From: a virus
Virus record (IMG/VR): IMGVR_UViG_3300025815_002358
Span: 1-38,122 of that record
Length of the DNA: 38,122 nucleotides
Reading direction: 5' to 3' (one strand)
The notes beneath the pieces were generated by a model. It searched no databases. It had not been told where the DNA came from and saw only the letters and a list, made by a program, of their open reading frames with translations. How positions within the stretch are numbered: position 1 is the first letter of the stretch; each line of letters opens with the position of its first letter. Position numbers and translations under genes: made by a program. This document shows, piece after piece, positions 2,186 through 12,753 of this stretch.

Positions 2186-2788
2186 ATGCCACTTACACCA
2201 ATAGTGATAGAACAGACATCCAAGGGCGAGAGATCCTACGACATTTTCAGTAGGTTGCTCAGGGACAGGATAATCATGTTGGAAGGACCGATAGGGGAGA
2301 ACACCGCTTCAGTGCTGTGTGCCCAGTTGTTGTTCCTGGAATCACAGGACGCCCAGAAGGATATCACACTGTATATCAATTCACCGGGCGGTCTGGTAAC
2401 GGCGGGCATGGCGATCTATGACACCATGCAGTATGTGAGATCAGACATACAGACCATAGTTGTGGGCCAGGCATGTAGCATGGGCTCACTCCTAGCGAGT
2501 GCGGGTACGAAGGGCAAGAGACTGATGTTGCCACACGCTAGACACATGATACACCAACCACTGGGTGGTGCGAGCGGACAAGCCACCGATGTCGAGATAC
2601 GTGCGAACGAACTGTTGCGTTGGAAGAAAGAGCTCACGGAGATCTACCAACAGACAACCGGACAGCCACTCGACAGGTTGAAGGCGGACATGGAGCGTGA
2701 CAAGTTCATGACACCCACGGAGGCGGTGGAGTACGGTCTGGCGGACAGGATAATCACGTCACGTGCCGAGGACGACCAAGGCCAATAG
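2186..2788 (+). CDS. clpP: ClpP-family serine protease, 200 aa
   Basis: A cytoplasmic ATP-dependent Clp protease proteolytic subunit, close to the usual bacterial length. The catalytic triad is visible: Ser98 in QACSMGS, His123 in MIHQPLGG and Asp172 in ERDKFMT. The substrate-strand motif NSPGG is at about residues 65-69. The start at 2186 is chosen over GTG 2171 because the promoter -10 box ends 6 nt before it. No Clp ATPase gene is present in the window, so the phage enzyme would have to work with host ClpX or ClpA, or act as a prohead or regulatory protease; that is inference. It stands between small early genes and the iron permease. AGG arginine codons are frequent here, matching the phage tRNA-Arg(CCT). 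Confidence 0.92.
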
Positions 2789-2827: not shown

Positions 2828-2856
2828 TTGCGAATAGTTAGCATTCGCAATACAAT
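2828..2856 (+). promoter_or_regulatory. promoter with 23-bp palindrome, iron permease gene
   Basis: TTGCGA (2828-2833), 17-bp spacer, TACAAT (2851-2856). The ATG at 2863 is 6 nt after the -10 box. A perfect inverted repeat TTGCGAAT-N7-ATTCGCAA (2828-2850) covers the -35 box and the whole spacer, the place where a repressor would block RNA polymerase. Because the gene is an iron permease, a Fur/Mur-like metal regulator is a natural candidate, but that is inference. Confidence 0.65.
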
Positions 2857-2862
2857 ATGAGC

Positions 2863-3447
2863 ATGACGGGTTTGACAGCAAGTACATTCATCTGGTTCAG
2901 GGAAGGCCTGGAGGCCTATCTGATCGTGCAGATGGCATGGTTGATGGCACAGAACCACACACAGCGATTGACTGTGTTAGGAAGCACAGCACTTGCCCTG
3001 GTGGCGAGCGCCGCGCTGGGCTACTTCGCGATGGACTACATCACTGACGATTTCGATAAAGTGGAAGCCTGGACCGCCCTGGCGGCCTCTGCCCTGTTGT
3101 TCTGGACAGCATGGTTCTGTCATGGAGCCGCACAGCACATGAAAGATATAAAGTCAAACATGGACGGTAGCATGATCGCACTGGCGACCATAGTGTTCCT
3201 TACTGTGTTCAGGGAAGGTGCGGAGGTCGTGGCGTTCCTCAGCGGGTTATGGGTCGCGGGTACGTCACTGCGTGACATAGGCACCGGTGCTCTATTGGGC
3301 ATAGGCGCCCTGGCCATCGTATGCCATGTGTTCAGCAACAGGATCAAACAGATACCCATAGGCAAGATATTCCGCGCCAGCAGATGGGTGTTCACGGCAC
3401 TGGCCATCTATTTCCTCTATTACGGCATACACGAACTACTGGAATAA
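2863..3447 (+). CDS. FTR1-type iron permease, 194 aa
   Basis: Integral inner-membrane protein with about six hydrophobic segments and the two hallmark RExxE motifs of the FTR1/EfeU family: REGLE at residues 13-17 in the first helix and REGAE at 117-121 in a later helix. In this family these glutamates bind ferric iron for import. It is shorter than E. coli EfeU (about 276 aa), mainly in loops. The ATG at 2863 is preferred over 2857 because the -10 box ends at 2856 and the predicted transcript begins at 2863. No EfeO/EfeB partner is nearby. Own promoter with a palindromic operator-like sequence. Known in bacteria; a phage copy would be an auxiliary metabolic gene. Confidence 0.85.
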   Translation: MTGLTASTFIWFREGLEAYLIVQMAWLMAQNHTQRLTVLGSTALALVASAALGYFAMDYITDDFDKVEAWTALAASALLFWTAWFCHGAAQHMKDIKSNMDGSMIALATIVFLTVFREGAEVVAFLSGLWVAGTSLRDIGTGALLGIGALAIVCHVFSNRIKQIPIGKIFRASRWVFTALAIYFLYYGIHELLE

Positions 3448-3488: not shown

Positions 3489-3734
3489 ATGTACACTCTT
3501 GAGAAGCGCAAGATGATCTACATAATGACCCGCAAGCCGGTGTGGTACCACACGCACTGCATAACACCATGGCGGGGAACGCCACTCTGGTATGACCCCA
3601 GCTGGGTCATAGGCGACTGTGAACTGTGTCGCATGGACATAGAAGGTCAGGACTGGTGGAACGGCAGTTCCTACCGAAACTCACAGAAGAGATTGTTTGA
3701 CAATATAGAATTGAACAAGAAGTATTGGTACTGA
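3489..3734 (+). CDS. hypothetical protein, 81 aa
   Basis: Frame beginning with ATG at 3489 and rich in aromatic residues (WYHTHC, WRGTPLWYDPSW, GQDWWNGSSYR). It has one CxxC-type pair (CELC, about residue 46) and a preceding HTHC, which together could bind a metal. No family is recognised and no ribosome binding site is seen; a TAAGTA box lies 5 nt upstream. The stop is next to the end of the opposing 52-aa gene. Downstream starts (for example the ATG of MIYIMTR) are possible. Confidence 0.5.
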   Translation: MYTLEKRKMIYIMTRKPVWYHTHCITPWRGTPLWYDPSWVIGDCELCRMDIEGQDWWNGSSYRNSQKRLFDNIELNKKYWY

Positions 3735-4836: not shown

Positions 4837-4864
4837 ATTATATAGATTATTTATGCGTTGTCAA
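4837..4864 (-). promoter_or_regulatory. full-consensus sigma70 promoter, leaderless layout
   Basis: On the minus strand TTGACA (4859-4864), 16-bp spacer, TATAAT (4837-4842), then 6 nt to the ATG ending at 4830. Both hexamers are perfect. The expected transcription start is the A of the ATG. Confidence 0.75.
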
Positions 4865-6374: not shown

Positions 6375-6977
6375 GTGGAATATTTTTTTTCAAAGAGTGA
6401 CGTGTTGTCTAAGAAAGCGGTGGATGGATTGGAACATACACTAGAAAAGTTTATAGCAACCAAAAAACCAACAGAGCACATCTTACCAGATTTACAGTAC
6501 GGCATAGAATACGAACACATCAGAAACATAGTGAGTGACAGTGTAGAAAAATTGATAGGTCCTCACAGATCTCCTGGATGTTTCTTGCAGAGGAGTTTCA
6601 AACCACTTCCTATACATTCAGATTGGCCCAACAATCAAGATGCAGACGATGACCACGAACCCTATTGTGCTGTGCTTTTTCCGTTACGCTTCGACGGCCC
6701 GTGCTCCACTGTGGTGTTCCCGGAGACATCAAAAACCAAGCACCTGGACGAAAACGCACAAAAGAAAAACCACCAATATAGTACACAAGAACAAAAGATG
6801 CTGGGACACATAAGACCCGAATACCTAAACAGGGTGAGTAAACCAAAAAGCATCAAATGGAACGTGGGCGATGCCATTGTGTGGCGCCGAGAGCATCTAC
6901 ACTGTTCAGACAACTTTCCAGACTATGGAACAACATTCAAAGACAGTTTAGTGTTATTCACTACAAAAGCAAAATGA
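6375..6977 (+). CDS. Fe(II)/2-oxoglutarate-type oxygenase, 200 aa
   Basis: A double-stranded beta-helix (cupin-like) oxygenase. The metal triad appears as His81-x-Asp83 in PIHSDW and a distal His (174 or 176) in REHLHCSDN. A basic residue suited to bind 2-oxoglutarate follows (Lys189 in FKDSLVLF). Enzymes of this type hydroxylate proteins, sugars or small molecules; the substrate is not deducible. The GTG start is taken because a TAAATA box ends 7 nt before it and no in-frame ATG lies nearby. The stop overlaps the next ATG (ATGA), starting a three-gene coupled operon. Confidence 0.65.
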   Translation: MEYFFSKSDVLSKKAVDGLEHTLEKFIATKKPTEHILPDLQYGIEYEHIRNIVSDSVEKLIGPHRSPGCFLQRSFKPLPIHSDWPNNQDADDDHEPYCAVLFPLRFDGPCSTVVFPETSKTKHLDENAQKKNHQYSTQEQKMLGHIRPEYLNRVSKPKSIKWNVGDAIVWRREHLHCSDNFPDYGTTFKDSLVLFTTKAK

Positions 6978-7276: not shown

Positions 7277-7959
7277 AGTACGGTTTGTATTCTGACAACG
7301 ATCTAAAAACCTTTGAGCAATGGCCGTTCCGTTGTCCATCGTGGGATCCGATGCCGGATGGCAAGAAGAACGTGGTGATACTGGGTTGTTCACACACCTG
7401 GGGGGTGGGACTGGAACCCAACGAGACCTGGGCACACCATGTGAGCCAACACAACACAGATAGGTTGAGATACTGGAATCTTGGACAGCCCGGCGCTGGC
7501 CCGGAGACAGTGGTCCGGATACTTTACTCATGCGAGAAGGTCATAAACCCTAGTATAATAATAGTGATGTGGCCCGAGATGAGTCGTAGGGAACGACTCG
7601 AAGACTTAGCTCTCAACCTCCTAGGTACCGATGAGAAACTGCGTTATGAAAATCACAAGACCGACCTCAACAACTTCCTCAAGAGTGTTTTCTTTCTGGA
7701 GAAGTATGCAGAAAAAAATCAGTGCAAGACCTTCCATTGTTTCGCTGACCACTACCATGATTTCCGTACTCCAGGGAACGCACCTGCGTTACTGGAAGAC
7801 TACACCCTGAAGAACTGCTGGCCACACTGGGATAGTTTCGAAGCAAGGGAGAGATTTGATAAGCCGAGCCGTGCGCGTGATGGTCAGCACTATGGCATGG
7901 AACACCACGAGAGGTTCGCCCGACTGTTCCTGGGTAAGTTCGGTCAGAAGTTGAGATAA
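7273..7959 (+). CDS. SGNH/GDSL-hydrolase-like protein, 228 aa
   Basis: Block I of the SGNH fold appears as VVILGCSHTWG with the nucleophile Ser40. A glycine block follows (NLGQPGAGPET), then a long helical middle, and a C-terminal block V-like DGQHYGMEHH with Asp203 and His206 as the remaining catalytic residues. The family includes esterases and carbohydrate O-acetyl-hydrolases or transferases. Removing or adding acyl groups on a surface glycan would match the neighbouring genes, but that is inference. It is the last gene of a coupled plus-strand operon; its 3' end overlaps the convergent radical SAM gene by 16 nt. Confidence 0.6.
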   Translation: MKYGLYSDNDLKTFEQWPFRCPSWDPMPDGKKNVVILGCSHTWGVGLEPNETWAHHVSQHNTDRLRYWNLGQPGAGPETVVRILYSCEKVINPSIIIVMWPEMSRRERLEDLALNLLGTDEKLRYENHKTDLNNFLKSVFFLEKYAEKNQCKTFHCFADHYHDFRTPGNAPALLEDYTLKNCWPHWDSFEARERFDKPSRARDGQHYGMEHHERFARLFLGKFGQKLR

Positions 7960-8930
7960 TCTTTTATATCTATTCCGCGCAAGGAGTCCTGTCGACTGAT
8001 AAATTCGTTCAGTTGTTGTGTGTTGTCCTCGTCTACTGCAATTTCATCGGGGGATATCTGTTTGGCCGTTAGTGTAAACTGATTTGTGTAACGCACATTT
8101 AATACACTTGGACTGTGCAAGAAAGCCCAGTCGTGTGGTATGCCCTTGTTCTTGGCGAAGTTTATTATGTCAGGTAACGTCTTTACATTGAAACAACTCA
8201 CCGTTGTCCACATATCTATTTGTAGCAGTCTGTAGGTCTTCTGTAGTTGTTGATATGCCTCGACTGTTTTTTTATAGTCATGCCACTTGATCGGCCACCT
8301 TGTGTAGTCATGGACATCACCTATGCCGTCCAGACTCATGGTCACGATGACCATGATGCCTTTCTTTAGAACATCCTCTATTTCGGTAATCATCCTGGAG
8401 CCATTCGTGTTCATCCTCACAATCTTAACATTGTCTGGTAACTCCCGCAACATCTTTTTATAGTTCCTACTAGCGGTCGGCTCTCCTCCGTTGACATCTA
8501 TTTCTAATATCCTCTGTTGTGGGAATGTTTTTAGAACCCCATAATTATCTACTCGGGGATATTGTTTTGATGAAAGGCTTCCGATCTTCGTGCTCAATCC
8601 AGCATTGCACGATTGGCATGCGCTGTTACACACATTGTCCAGCACTCCGCCTATTATGAGATAATCGTCTCTTATGGGTCTTAACAGGGTGTGTCTTTTG
8701 ACACTGTTGGTCCTTATACTTTCACCTTTTGTCTCCTCGGACTGCTTACATCTCAGACACTCCCGGGGCCATTGTCCATTAGACATTTTGTCTTCTATAT
8801 TTTTTAACCAATCACTATTTTCCATTTCTTCGTAACTTTTAAAACCTCTGTCAGTGATCATGTGCCCACACTTGCCCACTGTGCCGTTTTGATTCAGTCT
8901 GGCAAAGTGTCTCAGCCTAGGACAGAACAT
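7944..8930 (-). CDS. radical SAM protein, N-terminal cysteine cluster
   Basis: 328 aa from the ATG at 8930, chosen over 8948 because AGGAG lies 8 nt upstream of it. The radical SAM iron-sulfur motif CNSACQSC uses Cys101, 105 and 108. The GGEP-type SAM motif is VNGGEPT, and NTNGS and SLDGIGDVHDY strands follow. Extra cysteines before the core (Cys3, 21, 58, 61) resemble a twitch/SPASM auxiliary cluster, but placed N-terminally instead of C-terminally. Such proteins modify peptides or small molecules by radical chemistry; the substrate is unknown. It is the last gene of a minus operon with a sulfotransferase-like protein and an SDR. Confidence 0.8.
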   Translation of the reverse strand: MFCPRLRHFARLNQNGTVGKCGHMITDRGFKSYEEMENSDWLKNIEDKMSNGQWPRECLRCKQSEETKGESIRTNSVKRHTLLRPIRDDYLIIGGVLDNVCNSACQSCNAGLSTKIGSLSSKQYPRVDNYGVLKTFPQQRILEIDVNGGEPTASRNYKKMLRELPDNVKIVRMNTNGSRMITEIEDVLKKGIMVIVTMSLDGIGDVHDYTRWPIKWHDYKKTVEAYQQLQKTYRLLQIDMWTTVSCFNVKTLPDIINFAKNKGIPHDWAFLHSPSVLNVRYTNQFTLTAKQISPDEIAVDEDNTQQLNEFISRQDSLRGIDIKDYLNF

Positions 8931-9441
8931 TTTTGTATCTCCTGACAAGGTCGGGCAAGGATAGAGTTTGACCTAGGTGTTTGATCAGTTTGTAATCAAC
9001 ATCAACGAATGTTGCGCACACAGGCACCTTTATCTTACTTTTACTTTTGTTCTGATGGACGTTGGTTATTTTCTTTATGTGCGTAAACGGACGTAATGTA
9101 ATTTCGCCCCTGTAATATCTGCTCAGGTGAAGAAGCCAGATGTATTGTGGTGCAAAGTGCCTATCGACTAGCTCGCCTGCAGAGATTGCCTGTGATACTT
9201 TGTGAACGTCGAGGCTATTTTCTACACAGTATTGATTTACCCCAGACACAAAACGCTGTTCCGGATCTCTGATCATGACATCTATGTGTCTACACTTTTT
9301 TATCTCGCCATTGATAAATGTGGTGTCACACACTGCGGTGAGAGTGCTCCACCCAACCCTGAATATGGGGTAGACAGTGTGCACCCCGGTCTTGACAACC
9401 AAGCAATCTGTGTTCAACAGTTTGTTCCAGTGTGTCAGCAT
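8917..9441 (-). CDS. small sulfotransferase-like protein, 174 aa
   Basis: Segments in order match the sulfotransferase-2 pattern loosely: an N-terminal VYPIFRVGWSTL where the PAPS-phosphate loop would be, then VMIRDPEQRFVSGVNQY, which resembles the 3'-phosphate-binding R-D/N-P-x-x-R-x-x-S block, and a later DRHFAPQYIWL. The length is short and the first loop lacks the usual lysine/glycine pattern, so activity is uncertain. The ATG directly follows the stop of the SDR gene, and the stop overlaps the radical SAM gene, so all three are coupled. A second, clearer sulfotransferase lies at 25806-26591. Confidence 0.5.
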   Translation of the reverse strand: MLTHWNKLLNTDCLVVKTGVHTVYPIFRVGWSTLTAVCDTTFINGEIKKCRHIDVMIRDPEQRFVSGVNQYCVENSLDVHKVSQAISAGELVDRHFAPQYIWLLHLSRYYRGEITLRPFTHIKKITNVHQNKSKSKIKVPVCATFVDVDYKLIKHLGQTLSLPDLVRRYKNVLS

Positions 9442-10003: not shown

Positions 10004-10486
10004 ATGAAGTCATATCACATACTGGATTGCGACAAACAGCAGAAGATAGCAGACAGTCTTTACGGCTTTTATGTAGGTATAACGGCCAACAGAGAGATCA
10101 AGGACTTCTGGAATCCTCTGTCCAGGGAGGAGATACAACTCTATTTTTCAATACCAAACAATCCCACCAAGCAATGGTTTGACAGTCTAGGACTCAAGGT
10201 CAGGGACATGAGTTTCACCATATGCAATGAGTATATAGGTACCGACATACACAAGGATGAACCTCCTGTCGTGGCCAAAATAAATTTTCCCGTGCTGAAC
10301 ACAGAAGACACCTATAATGTTTGGTTTGATGAATATGCCAATGAGATTGACAGGGTGGAATGTGATAGGCCCATCGTTCTACGCTCAGATATCTTGCACA
10401 CGGTCGAGATAGGCAAAGACTCCAGGTTTCCTAGGATACAATTTAGTTTCTGTTTCTATAACGAACCGCTTCACTTATTAAAGTAG
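10004..10486 (+). CDS. Fe(II)/2-oxoglutarate-type oxygenase-like, 160 aa
   Basis: Compact double-stranded beta-helix pattern: His83-x-Asp85 in DIHKDEPP, then INFPVLN, a distal His132 in SDILHTVE and Arg144 in PRIQFSFCFYN, spaced as iron ligands and a 2-oxoglutarate anchor. There is no obvious SD; the late-type box TTTAAATA ends 6 nt upstream. It is convergent with the radical SAM gene and overlaps it by 44 nt. It differs in sequence from the oxygenase at 6375, so this is not a simple duplication. Substrate unknown. Confidence 0.62.
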   Translation: MKSYHILDCDKQQKIADSLYGFYVGITANREIKDFWNPLSREEIQLYFSIPNNPTKQWFDSLGLKVRDMSFTICNEYIGTDIHKDEPPVVAKINFPVLNTEDTYNVWFDEYANEIDRVECDRPIVLRSDILHTVEIGKDSRFPRIQFSFCFYNEPLHLLK

Positions 10487-11480
10487 GGCATTCGATGAAC
10501 CTATCATCGCGTTTGTGTATACGTGCGATTAGGTTAGACAGGTGCTCCTGATATCCCGGAGTGTCCCAAATGTTCTGCGCACTGAAGTCCGCCATGGTGC
10601 CCCAATCCTCGATCTTGTTCAGCCATACCCTGTCGGCACCGTACTGTTCTCCCAAGTCGACGATGGCATCCATCTCATGGTAATTGTCTCGTTGTACGAC
10701 GAAGTGTAATATGAATCGGAAGCCATGCTTGTGTTTCTGTTCCGCCATACATTCCAATCCTTCGAGTACCTTTTCCCAACGACCGCCGAGTCTCAACTTT
10801 TCATATGTGTGCTTGGTGGCTCCGTCTATGCTGACACCCAACTCTTTTAGGTTACCGATCACATAAGGAACTCGGGCATAGAACTCCTTGAACATCAGTC
10901 CGTTGGTCAGGATGCTGTACTTGATGTTGTCTCGTCGGGGTGTCTGTTCCATGAAGTGCCTGTACACGTGTGATGCGAAAGGATCGCCATCGGATCCCAT
11001 GTGTACCTGTATGGGATGGTCATGGTTGTGTAACCAACCATTTATCCGGTCAGCGAGTCGGATGCCCAGGTCGTACGTCGAACCTTCCTTGTGGAATCGC
11101 ATGCCAGTCCTACAACTGGGACACCTAAGATTGCAACTGTCATCTATAGCGAGCCTCAGGTGCTGTATGCGTTCCGGATGGCCATCCAACACGGCACCTG
11201 ACCTGATGTAAGAACATTGATGTTCGTTGCAGTAACGATACGTGCCGTCCCTGATGCTACCCTGTAGGTGTTGGTGCATAGAACCACCGATGATCTCATC
11301 CAGTGATTTTATCTGTAGGTTGCCTATGCTCTGTGGCAACCATGACTGGCACTCACAGGCAAAACACGATCCCTGCTTGTCTACCAGCACGGTGTCGAAC
11401 GGTCTGGGACACCTGTTGTTTATCCTTAAGTCCTTGGCTGTGTCTATATGGTAATTCTTGAACAGTCGCTGGTTTATCAT
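10443..11480 (-). CDS. radical SAM protein with N-terminal SPASM-like cysteines
   Basis: 345 aa. The radical SAM motif CNLRCPSC uses Cys116, 120 and 123; MGSDGDPF stands where the GGEP motif normally is. SILTNG and LGVSIDGATKHTYE follow in the usual order. The N-terminus has six further cysteines (24, 39, 42, 44, 84, 89) in a pattern like a SPASM domain (CPRPFDTVLVDKQGSCFACEC) placed before the core. Likely a peptide- or sugar-modifying enzyme. The start overlaps the stop of the 55-aa gene upstream (ATGA). Related in architecture to the protein at 7944-8930 but clearly diverged. Confidence 0.8.
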   Translation of the reverse strand: MINQRLFKNYHIDTAKDLRINNRCPRPFDTVLVDKQGSCFACECQSWLPQSIGNLQIKSLDEIIGGSMHQHLQGSIRDGTYRYCNEHQCSYIRSGAVLDGHPERIQHLRLAIDDSCNLRCPSCRTGMRFHKEGSTYDLGIRLADRINGWLHNHDHPIQVHMGSDGDPFASHVYRHFMEQTPRRDNIKYSILTNGLMFKEFYARVPYVIGNLKELGVSIDGATKHTYEKLRLGGRWEKVLEGLECMAEQKHKHGFRFILHFVVQRDNYHEMDAIVDLGEQYGADRVWLNKIEDWGTMADFSAQNIWDTPGYQEHLSNLIARIHKRDDRFIECPTLISEAVRYRNRN

Positions 11481-11814: not shown

Positions 11815-12753
11815 ATGAAAATCACAAAGAAGAAGACGGCTATAGGTGCGGCGATTATTATCGCACTGATAGTGATCGGTTTCATAATGAAACCCAAGCC
11901 GGCGGAAGCGGCTGACATGGAAGTGTACGGTTCACTTAACTACATGCTTTCCAACAACGAAGATGCCAATGGCGTGTCAACGTCAAAGGCCGAGAACAAT
12001 GGTTCCTCGATAGGAGCGAACTTCTCGCAGAACATCTCAGAGGGCGTTGACGGATTCGCAAAACTGGAAGTGGACATCGACGCGGATGACTCGGGATCGA
12101 ACCCATTTGACTCAAAACTGGCGTTTGCCGGTGTGAACATGGGCACAGCTGGAATCATATCAGCGGGTAGACAGAACTCAGTGTTCAAGGGCGCAGTAAC
12201 ATCTAAGACAGATGTGTTCCCAGAATATGGAAACGGTGCCGCACAGAAACTGTTCAGCAGGGACTCACACACAGTGATCTACTCTAACACTTTTGGTGCG
12301 ATACAGTTAGACAACTTGATCAAAGTGGACGGAACGACCGGTAAGTCAGGTGTTGACGTGTACGAGACAGCGGCCAGCATGGACATCAATGACGCCATGA
12401 ACGTGGGTGTTGCTTACACAGATGACAAGGTCAATGAAGTGACCTACACAGGTGCGGGTTTAACGTATGCTGTGTCGGATGCGACAACAGTGGGTTACAC
12501 GCACACAATCAAGGATGCGGAAACCACCAACCTTACCACAACCGCAAACGAGGTAGTCGCAAGTCACCTAGTGGACGACACGACATACTCGGTAGGTTAC
12601 GGTAAAGTCGAGGACGGTGCCGCGTACACCACAGTTGGAGCCGAGAAGAAGATCGGTGAGAACTTCAGCATGTACGGTGCTTTCGAGATGACTGACCCAG
12701 CGTCTGGCGTAGACACGCAGGATGCCGCGGTTGGAATCAAGTTCACGTTCTAG
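11815..12753 (+). CDS. Gram-negative outer-membrane porin, 312 aa
   Basis: The N-terminus has a lysine-rich n-region (KITKKK), a hydrophobic core (AAIIIALIVIGFI) and a likely signal peptidase site after PAEA (about residue 32). The mature protein opens with MEVYGSLNYMLSN, the first-strand signature of Gram-negative general porins, shows alternating beta-strand patterns with many Asp/Thr/Gly turns, and ends VGIKFTF with a C-terminal phenylalanine, the signal used for assembly into the outer membrane. Length is in the porin range. Strong promoter, structured leader and SD suggest high expression. Possible roles are nutrient entry during infection, receptor masking or replacement of a host porin; all are inference. 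Confidence 0.82.
   Translation: MKITKKKTAIGAAIIIALIVIGFIMKPKPAEAADMEVYGSLNYMLSNNEDANGVSTSKAENNGSSIGANFSQNISEGVDGFAKLEVDIDADDSGSNPFDSKLAFAGVNMGTAGIISAGRQNSVFKGAVTSKTDVFPEYGNGAAQKLFSRDSHTVIYSNTFGAIQLDNLIKVDGTTGKSGVDVYETAASMDINDAMNVGVAYTDDKVNEVTYTGAGLTYAVSDATTVGYTHTIKDAETTNLTTTANEVVASHLVDDTTYSVGYGKVEDGAAYTTVGAEKKIGENFSMYGAFEMTDPASGVDTQDAAVGIKFTF

Follow-up and report, generated by a model that had tools for sequence, protein, structure and literature searches.

A short FTR1-family permease gene of a T4-like phage behind a Fur-box-like operator

The stretch of viral DNA analyzed here (38,122 bases, referred to below as the window) carries a short gene of the FTR1 iron permease family. The palindromic operator over its promoter resembles the Fur boxes of SAR11 and other proteobacteria, and the protein is probably produced when the host cell runs low on iron. 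Its gene is carried by the phage itself, on a fragment of a T4-like phage: the window encodes T4-type replication and recombination proteins (a DnaB-like helicase, a primase, a UvsW-like helicase, a UvsY-like mediator, and a single-strand binding protein), a RecA-like protein that is closest to its counterparts in large T4-like Rhizobiales phages, and five tRNAs. The GC content of the window is 44%, that of the related viral records L005 to L007 is 33%, and from its relatives we infer an aquatic or marine origin of the samples. An earlier note on this DNA, which proposed iron import during infection under a metal regulator, proves right in outline, its reading now pointing to Fur.

Table 1. 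Coordinates of the features discussed (window positions unless a locus is named)
Feature	Position	Strand	Remarks
clpP, 199 aa from ATG 2189	2189..2788	+	Pfam CLP_protease, 4e-80; fixed upstream neighbor of the operator slot
Palindromic operator, TTGCGAAT-AGTTAGC-ATTCGCAA	2828..2850	.	arms 2828-2835 and 2843-2850, 100% complementary, 7-nt gap; Fur-box-like
Sigma70-like promoter	2828..2856	+	-35 TTGCGA 2828-2833, 17-bp spacer, -10 TACAAT 2851-2856; 9/12 consensus
Best 7-1-7 Fur-type match, TGCGAAT-A-GTTAGCA	2829..2843	.	13/14 positions
Short FTR1-family permease, 194 aa from likely ATG 2863	2863..3447	+	PF03239; six predicted helices
First motif REGLE, residues 15-19, helix 1	2899..2913	+	R-E-G-x-E invariant in 26 viral sequences
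Cys-His pair C88-H89 (C86-H87 counted from ATG 2863)	3118..3123	+	invariant in 26 viral sequences
Second motif REGAE, residues 119-123, helix 4	3211..3225	+	R-E-G-x-E invariant in 26 viral sequences
81-aa ORF	3489..3734	+	fixed downstream neighbor of the slot
48-aa small membrane-type protein	L128 2884-3027		behind an FTR1-type operator

The permease and its relatives

The window protein almost certainly belongs to the FTR1 family. Its score against the Pfam FTR1 model (PF03239) is 36.3 bits for a cutoff of 25.3, relatives reach 40.0 bits (L006) and 56.1 bits (L008), and the protein is predicted to be an all-helical membrane protein with one REXXE motif in each half, as FTR1/EfeU permeases have; the description of a complete membrane protein with both motifs in the earlier note is borne out. 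The open reading frame would yield 196 residues if started at ATG 2857 (2857-3447), but ATG 2863 is the likely start, since homologs begin with MTG and the -10 element of the relatives ends 6 nt before that codon. The canonical seven-helix form is what the evidence does not support. EfeU has 276 residues and seven transmembrane helices (PMC9174327), whereas the window protein has 194 to 196 residues and six long helices, ends in HELLE, and is without the seventh helix. The EfeU models match weakly over their first 200 positions (E 1e-13) and stay far under their cutoffs, with 51.6 versus 255 bits for NF041756 and 45.9 versus 303.8 bits for TIGR00145.

An AlphaFold model built with the 26 viral sequences had six long helices and a pLDDT of 78; one built with eight sequences only was poor (pLDDT 53). 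Besides the residues listed in Table 1, all 26 of these sequences share E68 and H92 (counted from ATG 2863), the latter (H94 in the longer numbering) being a possible extra metal ligand, and both REGXE motifs remain invariant even at 30% identity. The gene is under strong purifying selection, with a dN/dS of 0.085 to 0.087 between the window and L002/L003, values for which synonymous sites are near saturation. PHROGs gave no FTR1 match for the window protein, the PDB searched by sequence and by fold gave no FTR1 structure, and a viral fold library gave no significant match; the PDB fold matches obtained (e.g., MFS halves) were generic helical ones, none with a significant E-value, and were set aside.

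The earlier note proposed to look for the gene in other phages, and it is indeed found there: eight further viral contigs carry the closest copies, 60 to 84% identical, and 30 more distant ones bring the wider profile search to 38 viral contigs, with identity down to 30%. Among cultured phages, the only FTR1 matches are in four unannotated "Listeria phage" records (OR848119.1, OR846728.1, OR848130.1, and OR846748.1), whose 27% identical FTR1 possibly represents host DNA.

The cellular relatives were obtained by searching the class with profiles; a pattern search of genome contigs, with a pattern from the phage alignment, returned no FTR1. When 385 genomes sampled from the class of SAR11 were searched, short SAR11 FTR1 proteins came out on top with 104.5 and 101.5 bits, the next match scoring 58.2, and by this comparison the nearest cellular relatives found are the short SAR11 proteins. 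FTR1 is present in 7 of 117 genomes of the SAR11 order, in 6 of them as the short form. Based on this short form, a near-identical end point, and 32 to 36% identity, we place the phage protein in a six-helix short FTR1 class that it shares with SAR11, so that the FTR1-type assignment of the earlier note stands for the family and not for EfeU itself. Four SAR11 proteins (L203, L219, L221, and L222) also share the Cys-His pair and a Fur box upstream with the phage form; they differ from it in being cellular, in having 10 to 20 more residues, and in their canonical Fur cores, and one of them is followed by a DM13 gene (L219, 1068-1541, minus strand), whose product is a putative partner for FTR1 proteins of this class.

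The operator and its likely reader

The inverted repeat over the -35 element and the spacer, described earlier as a perfect 8-7-8 palindrome, is exact and is unique in the 38 kb even with three mismatches allowed (chance expectation, 0.13). To call the promoter strong was an overstatement, given that 11 sites as good as its 9/12 occur in 4.5 kb versus 6.5 expected. We nevertheless consider it credible because its -35/17/-10 layout is conserved at the same place in L002 to L007 and is also found in L179 and in L268 and L269. L005 and L007 read TTGCGAAT-GCGTACT-ATTCGCAA followed by TATACT, and L006 and L002 to L004 carry variants. Throughout L002 to L007, which form three groups, exactly 6 nt separate the end of the -10 element from the ATG of the MTG start, a spacing that suggests a leaderless FTR1 mRNA. 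Between the arms, the window reads AGTTAGC and L002 to L004 read its reverse complement, GCTAACT, such as an inversion of the operator on the spot would leave. Rfam holds no family at the operator, and the site is absent upstream of FTR1 in L008/L009, in L223 to L227, and in most distant viral FTR1 genes. Elsewhere in the window, a minus-strand sigma70 promoter with 12/12 consensus (TTGACA-16-TATAAT, 4837-4864) precedes a lipoprotein-like ORF of 98 residues.

A Fur site consists of paired heptamers, TGATAAT-n-ATTATCA, and frequently of two such pairs that overlap with an offset of 6 bp, a description reportedly given by Baichoo and Helmann in 2002. The operator has this geometry of 7-1-7 heptamers, single or in two copies 6 bp apart, the 8-7-8 and 8-1-8 forms differing by 6 bp. 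Scoring used a GC-tolerant Fur consensus, TGMKAATNATTMKCA, that was written with the arms already known. Of 29 viral FTR1 upstream regions, 14, in seven partly related sequence groups, reach 12 to 13 of 14 positions within 110 bp of the start, compared with 1.1% of random 110-bp windows of the same loci reaching at least 12; the short FTR1 genes of SAR11 have 13 to 14 of 14 upstream. Furthermore, the site is shortened by exactly 6 bp to a single 7-1-7, TTGCGAAC-T-ATTCGCA, in L230, L233, and L236, and in L229 the palindrome is gone while its left heptamer, TAAGAAT, remains Fur-like, changes that would be unexpected for an RNA hairpin or for a dimer with a fixed wide spacing.

A scan of a genome collection of 257 billion bases for both arms with any 7-bp core links the palindrome to iron genes of plausible hosts. 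Many proteobacterial matches among those listed have the cores GAGAATC, AATTCTC, or GATAATC and are plain Fur boxes; TTGCGAAT-AATTCTC-ATTCGCAA, found in SAR11 and other proteobacteria, shares with the phage operator identical 8-bp arms, the 7-bp spacing, and a position on or beside the promoter of an iron-uptake gene. The phage cores AGTTAGC, GCGTACT, and AATAACT deviate from the GAGAATC-type cores of these boxes. At no fewer than four Pelagibacteraceae loci among the matches listed, identical arms stand 23 to 28 bp before a 342-aa protein; the three of these proteins that were scanned are periplasmic binding proteins, the fourth (L029) was assigned to them by its length and near-identical start, and the one checked for iron specificity is of the ferric-binding FutA type (best E 5e-90 against solved structures). 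In a hand-picked, nonrandom set of 30 proteobacterial loci with a close gene, 10 loci had a binding protein of this kind and 5 a TonB receptor. The Bacteroidetes matches (core ACACTGT/ACAGTGT), most of which fall within predicted ORFs, were discarded as something of another kind: a longer palindrome, TTGCGAATACA(C/G)TGTATTCGCAA, found in many Bacteroidetes genomes (L017, L022, L025, L032, L038, and other loci).

Because SAR11 Fur boxes ahead of genes for iron-binding proteins have the same arms, Fur is the likeliest reader of the operator. This Fur would be the host's, because none of 18 viral records (the window and 17 related ones, possibly incomplete) has a Fur-family gene (PF01475). The earlier note allowed for a host or a phage metal regulator, of which the host regulator is retained and the phage one dropped, and the comparison with Fur sites that it called for gives identical arms and a 13/14 match, SAR11 being the source of comparison for operator and protein rather than a demonstrated host. 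A ClpP comparison assigns no host either, its best matches (∼62%) being spread across Pseudomonadota. We regard binding of the operator by host Fur as likely, bearing in mind a study of cyanophage Pho boxes in which predicting such host sites from phage sequence proved unreliable unless binding was tested (PMC10976474).

One operator, several cargos, and alternative readings

FTR1 is not the only gene behind this operator. The same palindrome, with the core AATAACT or AATTACT, precedes a 48-aa membrane-type protein (MSFLLHELMELG...) in L128, L143, L154, L155, L189, L195, and L197 and a 61-aa membrane-type protein in L179 (1279-1464). In L268 and L269, the 48-aa gene follows the layout seen at FTR1 loci, TTGCGA-17-TATACT. 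At several sister loci the palindrome lies between clpP and the 81-aa ORF, as it does in the window: clpP adjoins the operator in L128, L179, L189, and L257, and the 81-aa ORF, which has no match in Pfam or PHROGs, is found at the same position, there behind the 48-aa cargo, in L253 to L256 and L258. With the same palindrome before three different proteins, the operator appears constant and the cargo variable. Either the small proteins also act under iron starvation or the signal of the regulator is broader than iron. This variation is the weakest point of our reading and at the same time its most novel one. We tentatively suggest, as an idea that may well not hold, that in T4-like phages infecting aquatic proteobacteria a constant slot beside clpP, controlled by host Fur, accommodates swappable membrane cargos, all of them induced by iron starvation of the host. 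Two further genes beside the operator may be mentioned, namely, a phage gene for ribosomal protein L7/L12 that immediately precedes the FTR1 operator in L006 (7555-7926, plus strand; Pfam 3.6e-25) and a 414-aa ORF of L179 (1468-2712, minus strand) that looks isocitrate lyase-like by eye.

The noncanonical core and the unrelated small membrane proteins behind the same operator would also be explained if the palindrome were read by another host regulator (Mur, Zur, Irr, or some other member of the Fur family, or else a dimeric repressor outside it) and if expression from the slot were not tied to iron starvation; a few arm matches before genes for other metals or without relation to iron, such as a ZIP transporter (L113) and regulators (L103 and L108), go in the same direction. 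This seems rather unlikely given that identical arms with canonical Fur cores precede SAR11 iron-binding proteins, that the site contracts by exactly 6 bp, and that FTR1 is the commonest annotated cargo, with Fur boxes at the SAR11 FTR1 genes. It is quite improbable that the palindrome acts instead as an RNA hairpin near the 5' end of phage mRNAs, controlling stability or translation. In the L128 group it does stand directly before the ribosome site, is preceded by an ATAAGTA element, and folds well as RNA, but folding is unsupported in L002 (z +1.4), the palindrome is broken in L229 and L228, its length shifts by exactly 6 bp with no compensating changes, and at FTR1 loci it overlaps the -35 element and spacer and hence would lie upstream of the transcript. 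The hairpin was disfavored after folding and a search for compensating changes.

As for the protein, an FTR1 fold that serves another phage need (e.g., a membrane change or superinfection exclusion) without importing iron is unlikely: the missing helix 7, the missing partner genes, and the small membrane proteins among the other cargos would suit it, yet both REGXE motifs are invariant in viral copies as distant as 30% identity, and the same short form is maintained in SAR11 cells, with Fur boxes before it. Iron import during infection appears likely. FTR1 systems usually act with periplasmic partners (PMC9174327). In agreement with the earlier note, we found no gene for P19, an M75/EfeO-type protein, or DM13 in the window or the 17 related viral records, which are possibly fragments, and two SAR11 FTR1 loci had no obvious partner in the short stretch examined. 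The phage protein may work alone or with host partners.

Our working model is that the phage carries its short FTR1-family permease as an auxiliary metabolic gene, behind a host sigma70-type promoter overlapped by an operator that iron-loaded host Fur would bind. In an iron-replete cell, Fur-Fe would block the promoter; in a cell that is starved of iron, or whose free iron is drained by infection, Fur would release it and a leaderless mRNA would be made. Once made, the six-helix permease, whose REGXE motifs lie in helices 1 and 4, would supply iron-dependent enzymes with iron brought in through the inner membrane in the course of infection. Radical-SAM proteins need iron-sulfur clusters, and two of them are encoded in the window (7944-8948 and 10443-11480, both on the minus strand); two neighboring ORFs (6375-6977 and 10004-10486) appear 2-oxoglutarate/Fe(II) oxygenase-like by eye and have no Pfam match, and a porin-like gene is located at 11815-12753 on the plus strand (Pfam Porin_1, 1.6e-8). 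During infection by a pelagiphage, host afuABC and further iron genes are upregulated, and the authors of that work proposed that replication demands iron (PMC12753301). A permease freed from Fur when cell iron falls would fit both this induction and the two phage radical-SAM proteins.

For the whole chain, that is, a phage FTR1 gated by host Fur and importing iron, we estimate a probability of about 0.62, the parts supporting each other. Counting against it are the core, noncanonical for Fur, together with a consensus chosen in knowledge of the arms; the occurrence of the operator before 48- and 61-aa proteins without known iron role; and a protein with one helix fewer than EfeU for which no partner gene was found.

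Relation to known systems and implications

The closest parallel is cyanophage pstS, which, with other phage genes, is run by the host PhoBR system (PMC10976474). In both cases a phage nutrient-uptake gene would be placed under the starvation regulator of the host; they differ in that the nutrient here is iron and not phosphate and that the regulator would be a repressor and not an activator. In the literature searched, most subscription journals lying outside it, we found no report of a phage-borne FTR1 permease or of a phage gene controlled through a host Fur box.

Iron is a growth-limiting nutrient for microbes in large parts of the ocean. If our reading is true, the iron status of the host would directly gate a phage gene; if the more tentative idea of a swappable slot also holds, the 48- and 61-aa proteins behind the same operator would be new phage iron-response factors. 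A further implication of our reading would be that six-helix FTR1 on its own, which is what some SAR11 use, can suffice.
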